Under the pieces are notes generated by a model, which was given only the letters and a program-made list of their open reading frames with translations, was not told the DNA's origin and made no database searches. From JALSIF01 sp026981635 [NCBI: bacterium] (GTDB lineage: Bacteria; 4484-113; JALSIF01): 6,934 bases of DNA. Below are positions 1,157 to 6,886 of the stretch, piece after piece. The position numbers and the translations under genes were made by a program. The stretch's first letter is position 1. The number at the start of each line of letters is the position of its first letter. The stretch lies in assembly GCA_026981635.1 (NCBI GenBank), contig JALSIF010000004.1, positions 1 to 6,934 on the forward strand, written 5' to 3'.

Positions 1157-1858
1157 ATGAGAGACTCTTCAGACTCAGAGGGTAACGGCCAAAAAATCTG
1201 GGAGCTGGTCCGCTCACTTCCCGAGCTCATTGATGAGGCCCGCTTTCGGGAGGCGGCCGACCAGGCCCGTCGCCTGCTCAGCTCTCCCCTATCTAGCCTG
1301 CGCATCCGCTGGAATGCGGCCTTTTTTCTCCTCCTCACCGGCTACCTGAGCAGCGACAGCTCCCTGGTGGGCAAGGTGCTTCCCACCCTGAAGGAGCTCT
1401 ACGAGCAGAAATCACCCAAGACCGCCACCTCCGACTACTTCCTGCTCTCCTCCCTGATGATGGCCGAGATGGTGGGGGTGGGGGAGGGGCCCGAGCGACA
1501 GGTGATCGTTGAGGAGCTGGAGAAGCAGCGCGATCCCCGCAACCTGAACCCCTTCATCCACCTGGTCACCGAGTGGGCCTATTATCGGGGAGACCTGGAG
1601 CTCATCCGTCTGGCCCGGGCCAGTCTGTCGGTCAACCGTGAGCGGGAGGCCGACGACTTTGAGTTCCTGCGCATTGAGTTTTACCTCGCCCTCATGGAGG
1701 GAAGGCCGGTCTATCAACTGTTGGACAAAATGATCGGCCTCATAAGGCTTCCCTTGCAGGCCTACGAACTGGGCCAGCGGCTAATCCCCCGTGCCCTGGA
1801 TGCTGGATGCCTCTCTGCCCAGGAGGCACGGAGGCTCAGGGCAAAGCTGTCCGACTAG
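1157..1858 (+). CDS. Helical protein of unknown function
   Basis: I do not recognise a family. From ATG 1157 the product is 233 residues, soluble in appearance, with no signal peptide or membrane segment and one cysteine near the C-terminus. It is rich in charged amphipathic stretches (for example RFREAADQARRLL, then RIRWNAAFFLLLTGYL) that pair up in the manner of TPR- or HEAT-like helical hairpins, but no clear TPR consensus can be read. A TTG at 1139 would add six residues; an in-frame TAG at 1136-1138 rules out anything earlier. Neither start has a good ribosome binding site: GGGA lies 12 bases before the ATG and GAGG 11 bases before the TTG. The gene lies 70 bases after the DUF92 gene and may share its transcript. 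Its TAG stop overlaps the stop of the convergent repeat-protein gene, and no terminator hairpin lies between them. A scaffolding or protein-binding role is possible but unsupported. Confidence 0.75.
   Translation: MRDSSDSEGNGQKIWELVRSLPELIDEARFREAADQARRLLSSPLSSLRIRWNAAFFLLLTGYLSSDSSLVGKVLPTLKELYEQKSPKTATSDYFLLSSLMMAEMVGVGEGPERQVIVEELEKQRDPRNLNPFIHLVTEWAYYRGDLELIRLARASLSVNREREADDFEFLRIEFYLALMEGRPVYQLLDKMIGLIRLPLQAYELGQRLIPRALDAGCLSAQEARRLRAKLSD
1855..1858. other. Convergent stop codons overlapping in a CTAG palindrome
   Basis: The plus gene ends with TAG at 1856-1858 and the minus gene ends with TAG read from 1857 to 1855. The palindrome CTAG therefore serves both, and the two coding regions overlap by four bases. 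No stem followed by a T-run is visible on either strand nearby, so each transcript probably extends into the other gene. Confidence 0.9.
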
Positions 1859-3915
1859 CTGGATCCACCCGCCCCCTCCGGTTCAAGGTCAATGCCTGCC
1901 CCCAGCTCTCCCCTGGTCCAGAGGGCGTTGTTGCGCGCCTGTCCCATCCCCGGGTAGTCCTCCTCCACCAGCGGGTAGAGGTCCCTTCCCGCAAGGTCAA
2001 AGAAGAGCCCCACCCCCGGGTAACCCCGGAGGGGGGTGCCGTGGCCCAGGGCGGCGTTGGGTCTACCCGAGTAGATGTCGTCCCCGCCAAAGTCCACCAA
2101 CAGGCCCAGGGCGTTGAAGTGGCCCTGGCCCAGGCCGATCCCCTCGGTCATGTAGTGGTCGTTTCCCGCCATGTCCACCAGTATCCCCACCGCCAGGTCG
2201 TGGCCACTGCCCTGGCTCGGCCCGTAGGGAGAGGTGTAGGAGTCGTTTCCCGCTCGGTCCATAAGCATTCCCGAGGCGAGATGTATCCCTGCCCCCTGGG
2301 CATAGTGGACCGCCTCGTAGCGGTCGTTTCCCATCTCGTCTATGAGCAGGCCAAGCCCATACCAGTAGCCCGCCCCTTGGCCGTAGATGTCGGTGATGTA
2401 GACGTCGTTTCCCCCCTGGTCAATGAGCGCCCCCACCCCGCCAGCAATCCCCTGGTAGCGCCAGCCGATGGAGAAGCCCTGGGCCAGCCCCTGGAACTGG
2501 TTGTTGTAGAGGGGATAGTGGAGGAACTTCCCCCCCGCATAGTAGAGGTCGTTGCCCCACCGGTCCACCAGCACCCCCACCGCCAGCGGCCCGGCAAACC
2601 CCTCGCAGAAGCGGTAGCAGCGGTAGGTGTCCGCTGCGCCAGCCAGAGCGGTCACCTTCTCCGCCCGCTCCTCATCGCTCTCCCCGCCCACCACCTCGCC
2701 CGGGCCGGGCTCATCGCTTATGAGCAGGGCCACTCCCGCGGTTGCCGCCGCCAGGGCGTGCTCCCCATTGGCCACAAAGAGATCGCCCCGCTTCTCCCGG
2801 GAAGCAAGCTTTCGTTCCACATCCATAAGCACCGCCGTGCCAAAGAAGGCGCTTGCCAGGGTGTAGCCGATCCCCCGGTAGAGGTCATCCCCGGAGAGGT
2901 CCAAAAGCAACCCGATCCCCCCTAGTGCCCCCGCCCCCGAAAGCCGGCGGTCGGCCAGATACTGGTCATTCCCTCCCAGGTCAATGAGCACCCCGAAGGG
3001 TGCCCCGGCGGCGAAGTAGCCCCGGTAGGTGTCATCACCCCCCAGGTCCAAAATCAGGTCGGGCTGGGCAGAGAGACGCTCAATCCTCACCCGGTTGTCT
3101 CCCTTGCCCAGCAAAAGCACCGAGAGCCCGCCCTGCTTCAGATAGCCATAGCGGTACTCCCCGCTGACCTTAAGCCCCGCCGGCAGGAGTGCCCTCCTAA
3201 GCTCCAGCCCGCCGATCTCCCCCCAGCTCGCCTTCTCGGCCAGCATAAGGGAGCTTCTCAGGGCAGTCAGGCTCAGGCGGGCAAGGGAGCTCCAGTCAAA
3301 CTTCCCCACCAGCTCAACCAGCCGATCGCCGCTGAGAGAAGGAGGATTTTCCAGCGGAAGCCCGGCCACCTCCCCGCTGGGCAGCTCGGCAAGCTCCGCA
3401 GGGTCGCTCCACAGGAAGGGAAGCGCCCCATAAAGCTCCTCCACCTCGGACGGTTCCAGGCCCAGCCTGGAATCTTTCAGCTCGCGTTTGACCCGGGCCA
3501 GGTTGGACAGGGGATCAGGGGGCAGGCCCGGTCTGGGGAAAAGCTCTCCCCGCGAGACCAGCTGCCTCCTTTCCGCTCCGTCGTCCAGTCGGGTCATCTC
3601 GCCCAGGGCAAAGCTGAGCAGGAAGACCGGGTTTCGGGCGACCTCCCCAAGCTTCTTCTGGTATGAAAAAAGCGCCAGGGGGTCCTCCAGGGAGCGCTGC
3701 ACCGCCTGAAGCCTGAGCTTTCCCTCCCCCGGCCACTTGTTCCAGCCAAGATCCGCCTCGGTAAGGTTGAGCGCCGCCAGTGCCTCGGCCAGCGGTTGGG
3801 CGAGGGACCCAAACTCGGGGGGAAGTACATCCTCCTCCATCCCCCTGGCCGGGCCCATGACGAGTAGCCCGCAAAGTAGAAGAGCCAAGCTCAGTGCAAA
3901 GCGGAATGCTCCCAT
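1855..3915 (-). CDS. Exported 686-residue protein with GxLxDxxGNDxY repeats
   Basis: The start is ATG 3915, with GGAGG (3929-3925) nine bases upstream. The first 25 residues form a signal peptide (RFALSLALLLCGLLVMGPARG) with a plausible cleavage after A-R-G at 25, so the protein should act outside the cytoplasm. LLLC does not fit a lipobox. Residues 26-280 form a mostly helical N-terminal region without a recognised domain. From about 284 to 650 comes a repeat array with consensus GxLxDxxG(N/D)DxY, anchored by Asp at 290, 312, 339, 365 (degenerate), 451, 499, 526, 553, 581, 608 and 640. Later copies also share a QGxG element, as in YAQGAG. A non-repeat insert occupies about 366-425. The array suggests a solenoid, possibly a beta-helix, with acidic turns that could bind metal; this is inference. 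It differs from the RTX nonapeptide. The gene follows the TetR gene by 60 bases, probably on the same transcript. Function unknown. Confidence 0.85.
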   Translation of the reverse strand: MGAFRFALSLALLLCGLLVMGPARGMEEDVLPPEFGSLAQPLAEALAALNLTEADLGWNKWPGEGKLRLQAVQRSLEDPLALFSYQKKLGEVARNPVFLLSFALGEMTRLDDGAERRQLVSRGELFPRPGLPPDPLSNLARVKRELKDSRLGLEPSEVEELYGALPFLWSDPAELAELPSGEVAGLPLENPPSLSGDRLVELVGKFDWSSLARLSLTALRSSLMLAEKASWGEIGGLELRRALLPAGLKVSGEYRYGYLKQGGLSVLLLGKGDNRVRIERLSAQPDLILDLGGDDTYRGYFAAGAPFGVLIDLGGNDQYLADRRLSGAGALGGIGLLLDLSGDDLYRGIGYTLASAFFGTAVLMDVERKLASREKRGDLFVANGEHALAAATAGVALLISDEPGPGEVVGGESDEERAEKVTALAGAADTYRCYRFCEGFAGPLAVGVLVDRWGNDLYYAGGKFLHYPLYNNQFQGLAQGFSIGWRYQGIAGGVGALIDQGGNDVYITDIYGQGAGYWYGLGLLIDEMGNDRYEAVHYAQGAGIHLASGMLMDRAGNDSYTSPYGPSQGSGHDLAVGILVDMAGNDHYMTEGIGLGQGHFNALGLLVDFGGDDIYSGRPNAALGHGTPLRGYPGVGLFFDLAGRDLYPLVEEDYPGMGQARNNALWTRGELGAGIDLEPEGAGGSS
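1966..3066 (-). repeat. Tandem coding repeat array, about 81 bases per unit
   Basis: The repeats of the exported protein are also visible in the DNA. Read on the plus strand, variants of GTCGTTTCC followed by a (t/c)(c/g)GTC(c/a)A-type segment recur, for example near 2159, 2241, 2325 and 2405. The most regular block is residues 499-608, with spacings of 27, 27, 28 and 27 codons. Copies differ at many positions, so this is an old, diverged array rather than a recent expansion. A gap in the periodicity lies at about 2641-2820. Confidence 0.75.
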
Positions 3916-4618: not shown

Positions 4619-4733
4619 CGCCTGGTTGACTCACTCCTTGATCCAATATCCGACCACCGCCCGTCAACAGGTTTCACTTATACCCCTAACAAGCGAGGGA
4701 ATTTATTAGACTGCTCAGCGGGTATAGCAAGCC

Positions 4734-4738
4734 GGAGG
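4734..4738 (+). promoter_or_regulatory. Ribosome binding site fixing the trxB start
   Basis: GGAGG lies nine bases before ATG 4748. The frame stays open upstream to 4565, through the divergent promoter region and into the TetR gene, but that extension is unrelated to TrxB. The second ATG at 4757 lies 18 bases from this site, too far. Confidence 0.75.
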
Positions 4739-4747
4739 CCAACGCGC

Positions 4748-5743
4748 ATGGCGGACATGGCAGAGTTCCCCTACGACCGTATCTGGGACATGGTGATCAT
4801 CGGTGGCGGCTGCGCCGGTCTGGGTTGCGCCATCTATGCTTCCCGTAACCAGTTTGAGACCCTGGTGCTGGAGAAGAAGTTTGTCGGCGGCACCCTCGCC
4901 CTCACCTACGAGGTGGAGAACTACCCCGGCTTCTTCAACCCTCCCATAAGCGGGATGGAGCTGACCCAGAAGTTTGAGGAACATGCCCGCTACTTCGGCA
5001 CCAAGTTCCACTACGCCGAAGCGATAAAGCTGGAAAACGACGGCCCCTACCGCCTGGTCCACACCAACGAGGGCAAGGTGCTTCGGGCGCGCACCGTGAC
5101 CATCGCCATCGGCACCGAGGTAAACAAGCTTCCCGCCAAGAACCACGACAAGTTCTATGGCAAGGGGATAAGCTATTGCGCCACCTGCGACGCCCCCTTC
5201 TTCAAGGACAAGCGGGTGATCGTGGTGGGAGGAGGCGAATCGGCCTTTGAGGAGGCCTACTACCTGACCAGGTTCGCCCGTGAGGTCTACCTGGTCCACC
5301 GACGCCAGCAGTTTCGGGCCAGCCCCATCGCGGTAGAGCGGCTTAGGTCTGCCCCCAACGTGGAGTTCATCCTGGACACGGTGGTCACCGAGATCCACGG
5401 CAACGAGCAGGTTGAGGCGGTAACCCTGAAAAACGTAAAGACCAAGGAGGAACGCCACTTCCCCACCGACGGAGTCTTTGTCTTCATCGGCCACCACCCC
5501 CGCACCGAGTGGCTGGAGGGCTACCTGGAGCTTGAGCGGGGCTACATCAAGGTGAACTACCAGCAGGAAACCAGCGTGCCCGGGGTCTATGCGGCAGGGG
5601 ACATCTGCTTGGGGGCAGAGAAGCAGGCGGTGATTTCTGCCGGCCACGGCGCCACCGCAGCCATCAAGGCGAGAAACTACGTGGACGGCATAAACTGGCC
5701 CGACCGAGTGGGCAAGGAGGCCGCCGTCCCGAGACAGGGCTGA
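4748..5743 (+). CDS. trxB: Thioredoxin reductase (NADPH, FAD flavoprotein)
   Basis: The enzyme passes electrons from NADPH through FAD and a redox-active disulfide to thioredoxin in the cytoplasm. The 331-residue product matches the low-molecular-weight TrxB type (usually 310-330). Visible motifs in order: FAD-binding GGGCAG (19-24), the active site CATC (Cys144 and Cys147) followed by DAPFF, the NADPH loop GGGESAFEEA, HRRQQFRA (184-191) whose arginines favour NADPH over NADH, and the second FAD motif GVYAAGDI (279-286) followed by KQAVISAGHGATAA. Small departures from the common sequence are Cys22 where Pro is usual in GPAG, about 12 extra N-terminal residues, and Lys for Arg in the late 'RQ' motif; none should abolish activity. 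It is transcribed away from the TetR gene and converges on the lipoprotein gene. No T-run follows a hairpin on its own strand. A ferredoxin-dependent or other TrxB-like reductase is less likely given the HRRxxFR motif. Confidence 0.95.
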   Translation: MADMAEFPYDRIWDMVIIGGGCAGLGCAIYASRNQFETLVLEKKFVGGTLALTYEVENYPGFFNPPISGMELTQKFEEHARYFGTKFHYAEAIKLENDGPYRLVHTNEGKVLRARTVTIAIGTEVNKLPAKNHDKFYGKGISYCATCDAPFFKDKRVIVVGGGESAFEEAYYLTRFAREVYLVHRRQQFRASPIAVERLRSAPNVEFILDTVVTEIHGNEQVEAVTLKNVKTKEERHFPTDGVFVFIGHHPRTEWLEGYLELERGYIKVNYQQETSVPGVYAAGDICLGAEKQAVISAGHGATAAIKARNYVDGINWPDRVGKEAAVPRQG

Positions 5744-5755
5744 ATACCACCCCCG

Positions 5756-5783
5756 AAATAAAAAACCCCGGCTTTCGCCGGGG
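5756..5783 (-). terminator. Intrinsic terminator for minus-strand transcription
   Basis: On the minus strand CCCCGGC (5783-5777) pairs with GCCGGGG (5772-5766) around a GAAA tetraloop, then TTTTTTATTT follows (5765-5756). The stem is seven perfect GC pairs. On the plus strand the hairpin is preceded by A residues and lacks a T-run, so it serves the lipoprotein gene or the candidate small RNA rather than trxB. Confidence 0.88.
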
Positions 5784-5849
5784 TCGAAAGGAGGTGGTGT
5801 TTGGTGGGAGCTGGTGGCGGCTCCCACTTGCCGGGTCTAACCCGGCCCT
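5756..5849 (-). ncRNA. Candidate small RNA with anti-Shine-Dalgarno sequence
   Basis: In minus-strand order the segment contains stem-loop 1, GCCGGGT (5846-5840) with ACCCGGC (5836-5830); stem-loop 2, GTGGGAGC (5827-5820) with GCTCCCAC (5811-5804) and the loop CGCCACCA; an unpaired stretch holding CACCTCCTTTC (5796-5786); and the GAAA-capped terminator. A promoter-like element lies just upstream, so a separate transcript of about 90 nt is plausible. The alternative is a structured 3' UTR of the lipoprotein mRNA, which could itself be processed. The unpaired CACCUCCUUUC equals the 16S rRNA anti-Shine-Dalgarno end and could bind ribosome binding sites. No known RNA family was recognised; the function is inference. 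Confidence 0.4.
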
Positions 5850-5852
5850 TAG

Positions 5853-5881
5853 AGCATACCAGATTTCCCCTCCCTGCCCAA
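5853..5881 (-). promoter_or_regulatory. Possible promoter of the candidate small RNA
   Basis: On the minus strand TTGGGC (5881-5876) is separated by 17 bases from TATGCT (5858-5853), which has an upstream TG (TGGTATGCT, extended -10). It begins directly after the lipoprotein stop codon. The -35 matches consensus at three of six positions and the -10 at four of six, so it is a moderate candidate with a start site near 5849-5846. Confidence 0.35.
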
Positions 5882-6886
5882 CTAGTTCCAGAAGTGGAAC
5901 CAGTCGGAAGAGAGGACGCTCTCCCTAAATAGCTTGCTTGCCTTGGCCTTGCGAAGGCTTTCCGGCAGGGCTAGGTAGCGCAGGGTGAGGCTTCCGATCT
6001 GCTCGGGACTGCTGGGCTGGCGGGAGATGAACTCAACCTGGCTCCCCCCCTGGTCGGTGAAGGTAATGGATGTCCTGGTCCAGGGATCAACCAGGTTGTT
6101 GTAGATGATCCAGTCTCTACCGTAGTCAAGCAGCTCCTGGGAGCTTGCCGGCACCCTGCCCTTCTCCACGATGAAGAAGTAGGCCAGGTGGGAAAGATCG
6201 CGGATTATACGGGAGGCCTTGACCGCCTTGCGGGCCTCCTCCCGGGTGGTGATGCCCAGGGAAGCCAGCTCGCTGGGGATGGACAGATCGGGACCACCGA
6301 CCTGCCCACCCATCATCTCGCTGGGCAGCATCCCCTCCGGCTGGACCACGATCTGCATGGTGCTGAGCGGGGCGTCGGTCTCGCTTCTCACCTGCCCGCT
6401 TACCACCATACGCAGGGCCTGCTTGGTCAGCTTGAGCCCCCTTACCCCGGGGTCAATGATGGCGTAGCCCATCGCCTTGACCTCCTCATAGGACTCGGGG
6501 AAACGCCCCTCGCCCATGAGGAAGGACCTGACCTGAGCGGCCACGATCTGCAGCTCCCAGTAGTGGTCGGTGGCCAGGCCCTTGCCCAGCATGCGATGGC
6601 GCCACTGCTCGTTGAGGATGATGTCGCCCCCGGTCTCCATTCCCATGATCTTCTGCCCCGGGGGCACACTCTCCTTGGTGGCCTGCTGGTTAGAAGAAGT
6701 GGTGGAAGAGGAGAGAAGGTCAGCACCCCCCTCCCCCTCCCCGTCGGTGTCAGCCTGCTGTTGGGAAGTGGCGGACTGGTTGGCATTGGCCACCGGGGAG
6801 GTCTCCTCCCCCTGTTCCACCTTGGGGCAGCCAGCAGACAGGGCCAAGATCACCAGTCCCAGGGAAAGGCTGAGCCATCTAGTCAT
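5882..6886 (-). CDS. Lipoprotein with two pseudopilin-like modules
   Basis: The 334-residue product begins with a lipoprotein signal (LSLGLVILALSAGC) whose lipobox LSAG|C places the lipid on Cys20; it is therefore anchored on the outer face of a membrane. Residues 21-80 are a flexible linker rich in Ser, Thr, Gln and Glu. Two related segments follow: LQIVAAQVRSFLMGEGRFP with SYEEVKAMG (112-140) and IRDLSHLAYFFIVEKGRVP with SSQELLDYG (228-256), the second continuing to VDPWTR (266-271). The pattern 'long helix, (E)G/KGR(F/V)P, S..EL/EV..(M/Y)G, DPW' recalls the globular part of type II secretion pseudopilins such as GspG, but the pilin N-terminal helix is replaced by the lipoprotein signal. 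No enzyme motif is visible. ATG 6886 has GGAGG (6900-6896) nine bases upstream. The gene ends 138 bases from the convergent trxB, with a terminator between. The role is unknown; export or surface assembly is inference. Confidence 0.82.
   Translation of the reverse strand: MTRWLSLSLGLVILALSAGCPKVEQGEETSPVANANQSATSQQQADTDGEGEGGADLLSSSTTSSNQQATKESVPPGQKIMGMETGGDIILNEQWRHRMLGKGLATDHYWELQIVAAQVRSFLMGEGRFPESYEEVKAMGYAIIDPGVRGLKLTKQALRMVVSGQVRSETDAPLSTMQIVVQPEGMLPSEMMGGQVGGPDLSIPSELASLGITTREEARKAVKASRIIRDLSHLAYFFIVEKGRVPASSQELLDYGRDWIIYNNLVDPWTRTSITFTDQGGSQVEFISRQPSSPEQIGSLTLRYLALPESLRKAKASKLFRESVLSSDWFHFWN

Follow-up and report, generated by a model that had tools for sequence, protein, structure and literature searches.

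The gap between two convergent genes in the window (the whole 6,934-nt stretch of DNA that was analysed) may give rise, on its minus strand, to a discrete RNA some 90 nt long that spans roughly 5847 to 5757 and belongs with the small RNAs derived from 3' UTRs, a reading that we take from the sequence and put forward tentatively, at somewhat short of even chances. The minus-strand terminator and the excess of perfect stems are solid, and the further step to an independent RNA, which rests on a marginal promoter, a comparable unit elsewhere in the genome and an exposed stretch of RNA, is plausible. Our verdict is thus of a plausible, unproven small RNA of a kind already known, and an ordinary structured gene end accounts for the segment (5756-5881) almost as well. 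If the RNA is real, it is a concrete and testable small RNA in a little-studied lineage without detected Hfq; if it is not, the segment is a reminder that extra stems in a convergent gap may belong to either strand.

The convergent gap is 138 bases long (5744-5881) and separates a thioredoxin reductase gene on the plus strand from a lipoprotein gene on the minus strand, the stop codon of which (TAG) lies at 5884-5882. The lipoprotein has no Pfam or NCBIfam family at E 0.001. The genome is a draft assembly (1.75 Mb in 317 contigs, 85% complete). The features of the locus are as follows.

4745-5743, plus strand: thioredoxin reductase gene (TIGR01292, 354 bits against a cut-off of 343).
5754-5785, minus strand: intrinsic terminator, a 9-pair stem with a GAAA loop (5785-5764) and then TTTTATTTCG (terminator scan and folding).
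5786-5803, minus strand: unpaired 18-base stretch CCAAACACCACCUCCUUUC, which holds CACCUCCUUU (5796-5787), the proposed seed (folding).
5804-5827, minus strand: hairpin 2, a perfect 8-pair stem with a loop of 8, GTGGGAGC-N8-GCTCCCAC (folding and stem counts).
5830-5846, minus strand: hairpin 1, a perfect 7-pair stem with a loop of 3, GCCGGGT-TAG-ACCCGGC (folding and stem counts).
5853-5881, minus strand: promoter-like element, TTGGGC (5881-5876), a 17-base spacer and an extended -10, TG-G-TATGCT (5861-5853) (sequence).
5882-6886, minus strand: lipoprotein gene, 334 aa, with a lipobox-like LSAGC; its stop codon adjoins the promoter-like element.

An earlier sequence-only reading had described on the minus strand a promoter-like element, two hairpins, an unpaired stretch and a terminator capped by GAAA and followed by a T-run, and all of these are in the sequence; the T-run directly after the terminator stem (5785-5764, minus strand) is TTTTATTT. 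The 93-nt RNA from 5848 to 5756 (minus strand) folds into exactly three hairpins at -48.0 kcal/mol (z -5.6), and none of 200 shuffles is equally stable. The full 126-base segment gives a z of -4.2, and the plus strand of the gap is likewise structured (z -3.9). Hairpin 1 has a mean pair probability of 0.97 in every minus-strand context tried, and that of hairpin 2 is 0.97-1.00 on the minus strand and, depending on context, 0.32-1.00 on the plus strand.

The extra stems of 7 and 8 pairs are perfect, as had been claimed, and lie well beyond chance when set against shuffles and genome windows. The 138-base gap holds three perfect stems of at least 7 pairs, and among 5000 dinucleotide shuffles three such stems never occur and two occur in 14. 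For the 96 bases upstream of the terminator, five of 5000 shuffles have two stems; in unmasked 96-base genome windows (81 contigs, n=9726, with those at the segment itself excluded) two stems are found in 10 and three in none. The segment's gap is the only one of 72 intergenic gaps of at least 60 bases (41 contigs, with genes predicted by a simple caller based on codon usage) to contain three stems, and just one other contains two. The 41 contigs hold nine noncoding terminator candidates: seven of them lack any further 7-pair stem upstream, one is preceded by a single such stem, and that of the 5756-5881 segment by two.

The promoter-like element is marginal evidence, weaker than the stems. 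Its -35-like TTGGGC lies directly behind the lipoprotein stop codon on the minus strand and the expected start is at about 5846-5849, so the element claimed at the right distance is there, although its score is equalled by 2-6% of background windows. That score, 8.75-8.85 with approximate E. coli weights, is matched in 2.4% of unmasked 65-base windows (342 of 14428) and in 5.9% of unmasked 130-base windows (421 of 7186), and a consensus scan requiring 9 of 12 positions lists no promoter anywhere in the 6,934-nt window. Among 30 predicted genes preceded by a gap of 70 bases or longer, four have an upstream region that outscores it, and the element therefore resembles a genuine promoter of this genome, short of proof.

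A survey of U-tailed terminators in the genome (81 contigs, 530,755 bases, 60,121 of them masked) gave 13 hairpins with a strong U-tail, six of them outside predicted genes, including the one in the segment. We compared these six noncoding terminators and two at the edges of predicted genes (L140 and L155), and dropped five inside predicted genes. The best promoter-like score in the 130 bases upstream is 3.2-7.6 for the four terminators directly behind a same-strand gene and 11.5-13.0 for L111, L099 and L155; the 8.85 of the 5756-5881 segment is intermediate among the eight, with the 95% background level at 8.91 (a background that includes masked windows). Nothing at gathering level was found by Rfam in the compared terminator loci. 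U-tailed terminators are thus scarce in this genome and some end short promoter-to-terminator units, which offers a simple route to further candidates.

The unit at L111 (contig C225, minus strand, about 2075-1946 or, more narrowly drawn, 2030-1946) is a cleaner small-RNA candidate than the segment. It has a good promoter-like element (TTGACG-18-TATAAG), a 5-pair hairpin, a 28-nt unpaired stretch with CACCTCCT and a U-tailed terminator with a 10-pair stem and seven T. As a free-standing candidate it is clean, since the genes on either side run on the opposite (plus) strand and have Pfam domains, one of 3-hydroxyacyl-CoA dehydrogenase and the other of flavin reductase. Its likeness to the segment is one of layout and not of sequence, and homology is rejected: the local alignment score is matched by 15 of 1000 shuffles and by 4% of 7972 windows (masked letters included). 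A sequence family joining the two through the shared GGGAAATCTGG was considered and discarded, as this sequence is promoter-like at only two of its six exact places in the genome; the other four are in apparent coding stretches.

The unpaired stretch of the segment is anti-Shine-Dalgarno-like, with CACCUCCUUU the complement of an ideal Shine-Dalgarno sequence. The organism's own 16S rRNA, sought to confirm the anti-Shine-Dalgarno tail, was not found in the assembly, and the tail is taken to have the sequence usual in bacteria. In predicted folds 5787-5796 has an unpaired fraction of 0.91 within the 93-nt RNA versus 0.17-0.54 in longer lipoprotein transcripts, where pairing with GGGAGGGG of the promoter region partly hides CACCUCCUUU. 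Among the 941,268 strand-bases sampled, CACCTCCTTT is rare (4 occurrences) and CACCTCC common (479); judging by the list inspected, that for CACCTCCT, most occurrences of the latter lie opposite coding or ribosome-binding sequence.

Target prediction by energy is near chance, no better than with shuffled seeds: when the seed was scored for duplex energy against 423 start regions, with a choice of starts that favours those with a Shine-Dalgarno sequence, the best value was reached by 16 of 100 shuffled seeds and the mean by 41 of 100. A 14-nt perfect complement of the unpaired stretch lies over the ribosome-binding site of a FliK-like gene with Pfam Flg_hook (L104:3225-3260, plus strand, start at 3252). 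This match is equalled by one of 300 composition shuffles; when the anti-Shine-Dalgarno core is kept, shuffled flanks equal it in 33 of 1000 trials and random flanks in 11 of 1000. We regard this putative target site as a lead and not as evidence.

The segment is unique in its own genome. DNA searches of that genome and of 59 others (nine from its own class, the others sharing no more than the domain) gave only matches of 15 to 37 bases, none spanning the whole segment, and the best in the 59 other genomes is 20 bases long (E 0.0025); a plasmid search gave just one match, of 36 bases. No relative of the lipoprotein was found in the 59 genomes, nor in a scan of named genomes with short peptide patterns; a search of named genomes for the reductase gave three remote ones (23-36% identity). 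As no homologue of the segment or the lipoprotein was found, covariation neither supports nor refutes the structure. A covariance model built from the single sequence has nine matches besides itself in 10 genomes of the phylum (best E 0.002); eight of these rest on the generic terminator, with similar GAAA- or TACG-capped ones in several genomes of the class, suggesting that such terminators are common there, and the other is within coding sequence of the same genome (L088). Eight of the nine reductase loci in the class are readable, and one of the eight has a 7-pair stem within 400 bases downstream. At one such locus, L037, the opposite strand holds the longest frame downstream of the reductase, possibly a convergent neighbour of another kind.

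An Rfam search of the whole window, run by E-value, showed nothing above gathering score, with PsrR1 (22.8 of 42 bits) and BjrC68 (18.8 of 39 bits) the best matches at the segment below that level, and no tRNA was found. A repeat or operator was also considered and set aside, with the segment present once in the genome and the hairpin 1 dyad CCGGGTNNNACCCGG nowhere else. A search for Hfq (PF17209) detected it in none of 10 phylum genomes, this one included, and in five of 14 control genomes. Rho_N was detected in nine of the 10 and not in this genome, where one contig ends in a C-terminal piece of Rho that scores 124 bits, short of the family cut-off.

The small-RNA reading draws on the z of -5.6 for the fold, the excess of stems, a U-tailed terminator on the minus strand only, a promoter-like element at the right distance and a seed exposed in the short form only, and is opposed by the marginal promoter, the lack of a homologue, the failure to find Hfq and duplex energies near chance. 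The same material can be read as an ordinary structured 3' UTR of the lipoprotein mRNA, in which the stems stabilise the message or are neutral and the promoter-like element arose by chance. We consider this rather unlikely, even though the terminator is on the same strand 97 bases behind the lipoprotein stop codon, the hairpins and terminator are predicted to form equally well in a long transcript, and the promoter score is only within the top 2-6%; the rarity of a gap with three stems (one in 72) and the lack of any extra stem at seven of the nine noncoding terminator candidates, where the segment has two, argue against it. The claim that the segment gives an RNA of about 90 nt, either independent or processed, keeps its anatomy, its stems beyond chance and a similar unit at L111, and is weakened by the marginal promoter and by the fact that the same two stems make an equally good hairpin pair on the plus strand behind the reductase gene.

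This last point raises the possibility that the gap holds two terminators, with the hairpin pair at 5804-5846 ending or protecting the reductase transcript on the plus strand, 61-103 bases behind the reductase stop codon, and the U-tailed hairpin ending that of the lipoprotein gene. The stems are perfect palindromes that form on the plus strand in most contexts, our scan of the gap shows no U-tailed terminator for the plus-strand reductase gene, and it has been proposed that clusters of hairpins can act as terminators even when they lack a U-trail (PMC8355165). We nonetheless think this arrangement unlikely: hairpin 2 falls to 0.32 on the plus strand when the whole gap is transcribed, and Rho, of which the genome has a fragment, could end the reductase transcript without hairpins. 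A small plus-strand gene of 42-43 aa behind the reductase gene, starting at 5797, 5801 or 5804 and with the stems in its coding sequence, would explain AAAGGAGGTG (5787-5796) as an ideal Shine-Dalgarno sequence to which TTG at 5801 and GTG at 5804 are well spaced. It has no ATG start, however, and its strongly negative codon log-odds in both frames (-0.34 and -0.35 per codon, where predicted genes have a mean of +0.37 and a fifth percentile of +0.14) disfavour it to the point that we consider it highly improbable.

Under the small-RNA reading, the RNA would start just past the stop codon of the lipoprotein gene, from the extended -10 element acting as a weak promoter (type I), or alternatively be cut from the lipoprotein mRNA (type II), and would end at the terminator common to that mRNA. 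In its likeliest mode of action the two 5' hairpins would protect it, and the unpaired CACCACCUCCUUUC could pair with the ribosome-binding sites of other mRNAs without Hfq and so block translation. As the stretch is predicted to be partly paired with GGGAGGGG in transcripts of the lipoprotein gene, only the short form would be fully active. We infer that the promoter fires and that the RNA accumulates and acts.

Small RNAs derived from 3' UTRs have a promoter in or just behind the coding sequence, are about 80-90 nt long and have a terminator common to the upstream gene (PMC8383071; PMC7821165). The segment resembles type I of these so described, with its promoter-like element just behind the lipoprotein gene, a predicted length of about 90 nt and a terminator in common with the upstream mRNA, which presumably uses it; it differs in its marginal promoter and in the lack of a detected Hfq in the phylum. 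The alphaproteobacterial alpha-r14 family (NfeR1 of Sinorhizobium meliloti) is described as having three hairpins with an unpaired anti-Shine-Dalgarno motif, CCUCCUCCC in the unpaired region of each hairpin and stems that are free to vary in sequence, with NfeR1 independent of Hfq (PMC10746234). By that description the segment also has three hairpins and an anti-Shine-Dalgarno motif in unpaired RNA, but it lacks CCUCCUCCC and has a single CACCUCCUUU between hairpins 2 and 3, outside the loops, and the likeness is one of apparent working, not of membership. Hairpin clusters consist of stable hairpins set side by side no further than about 100 bases past a stop codon (PMC8355165). The segment likewise has adjacent stable hairpins near a stop codon; on the minus strand, however, one hairpin has a classical U-tail and does not need the other two for termination.

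A broader reading, which we consider quite improbable, would make the segment one of several short free-standing RNA genes that share a layout (a 5' hairpin, an exposed stretch with CACCTCC in two of the three units examined, and a U-tailed terminator) but no sequence, and silence mRNAs by covering the Shine-Dalgarno sequence, in a lineage without detected Hfq and with the flagellar FliK-like mRNA as one candidate target. In the segment this would include a switch, in that the short RNA would leave the anti-Shine-Dalgarno stretch free and the lipoprotein mRNA would mask it.

Two further units in the genome have promoter-like elements upstream of U-tailed terminators. That at L099 (contig C1, minus strand, about 6075-5980) combines a promoter-like TATACT with a short hairpin and a U-tailed terminator. 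It is not a clean case: an AT-rich, foreign-looking frame on the same strand, read by eye and missed by the gene caller, ends about 70 bases upstream. At L155 (contig C288, plus strand, about 7650-7755) a promoter-like element and a U-tailed hairpin lie where a predicted gene begins, and this unit may be a leader or attenuator.

Within the window, a candidate attenuator or riboswitch at the segment would have no gene directly 3' of the terminator on the minus strand, since that strand is there antisense to the reductase gene. A 370-codon open frame at 4715-5827 (minus strand), antisense to the thioredoxin reductase gene, is probably a shadow frame of high-GC coding sequence. The minus strand at 1855-3915 encodes a protein of 686 aa in which GGxDxY-like repeats are numerous; at E 0.001 it matches no family of Pfam or NCBIfam.
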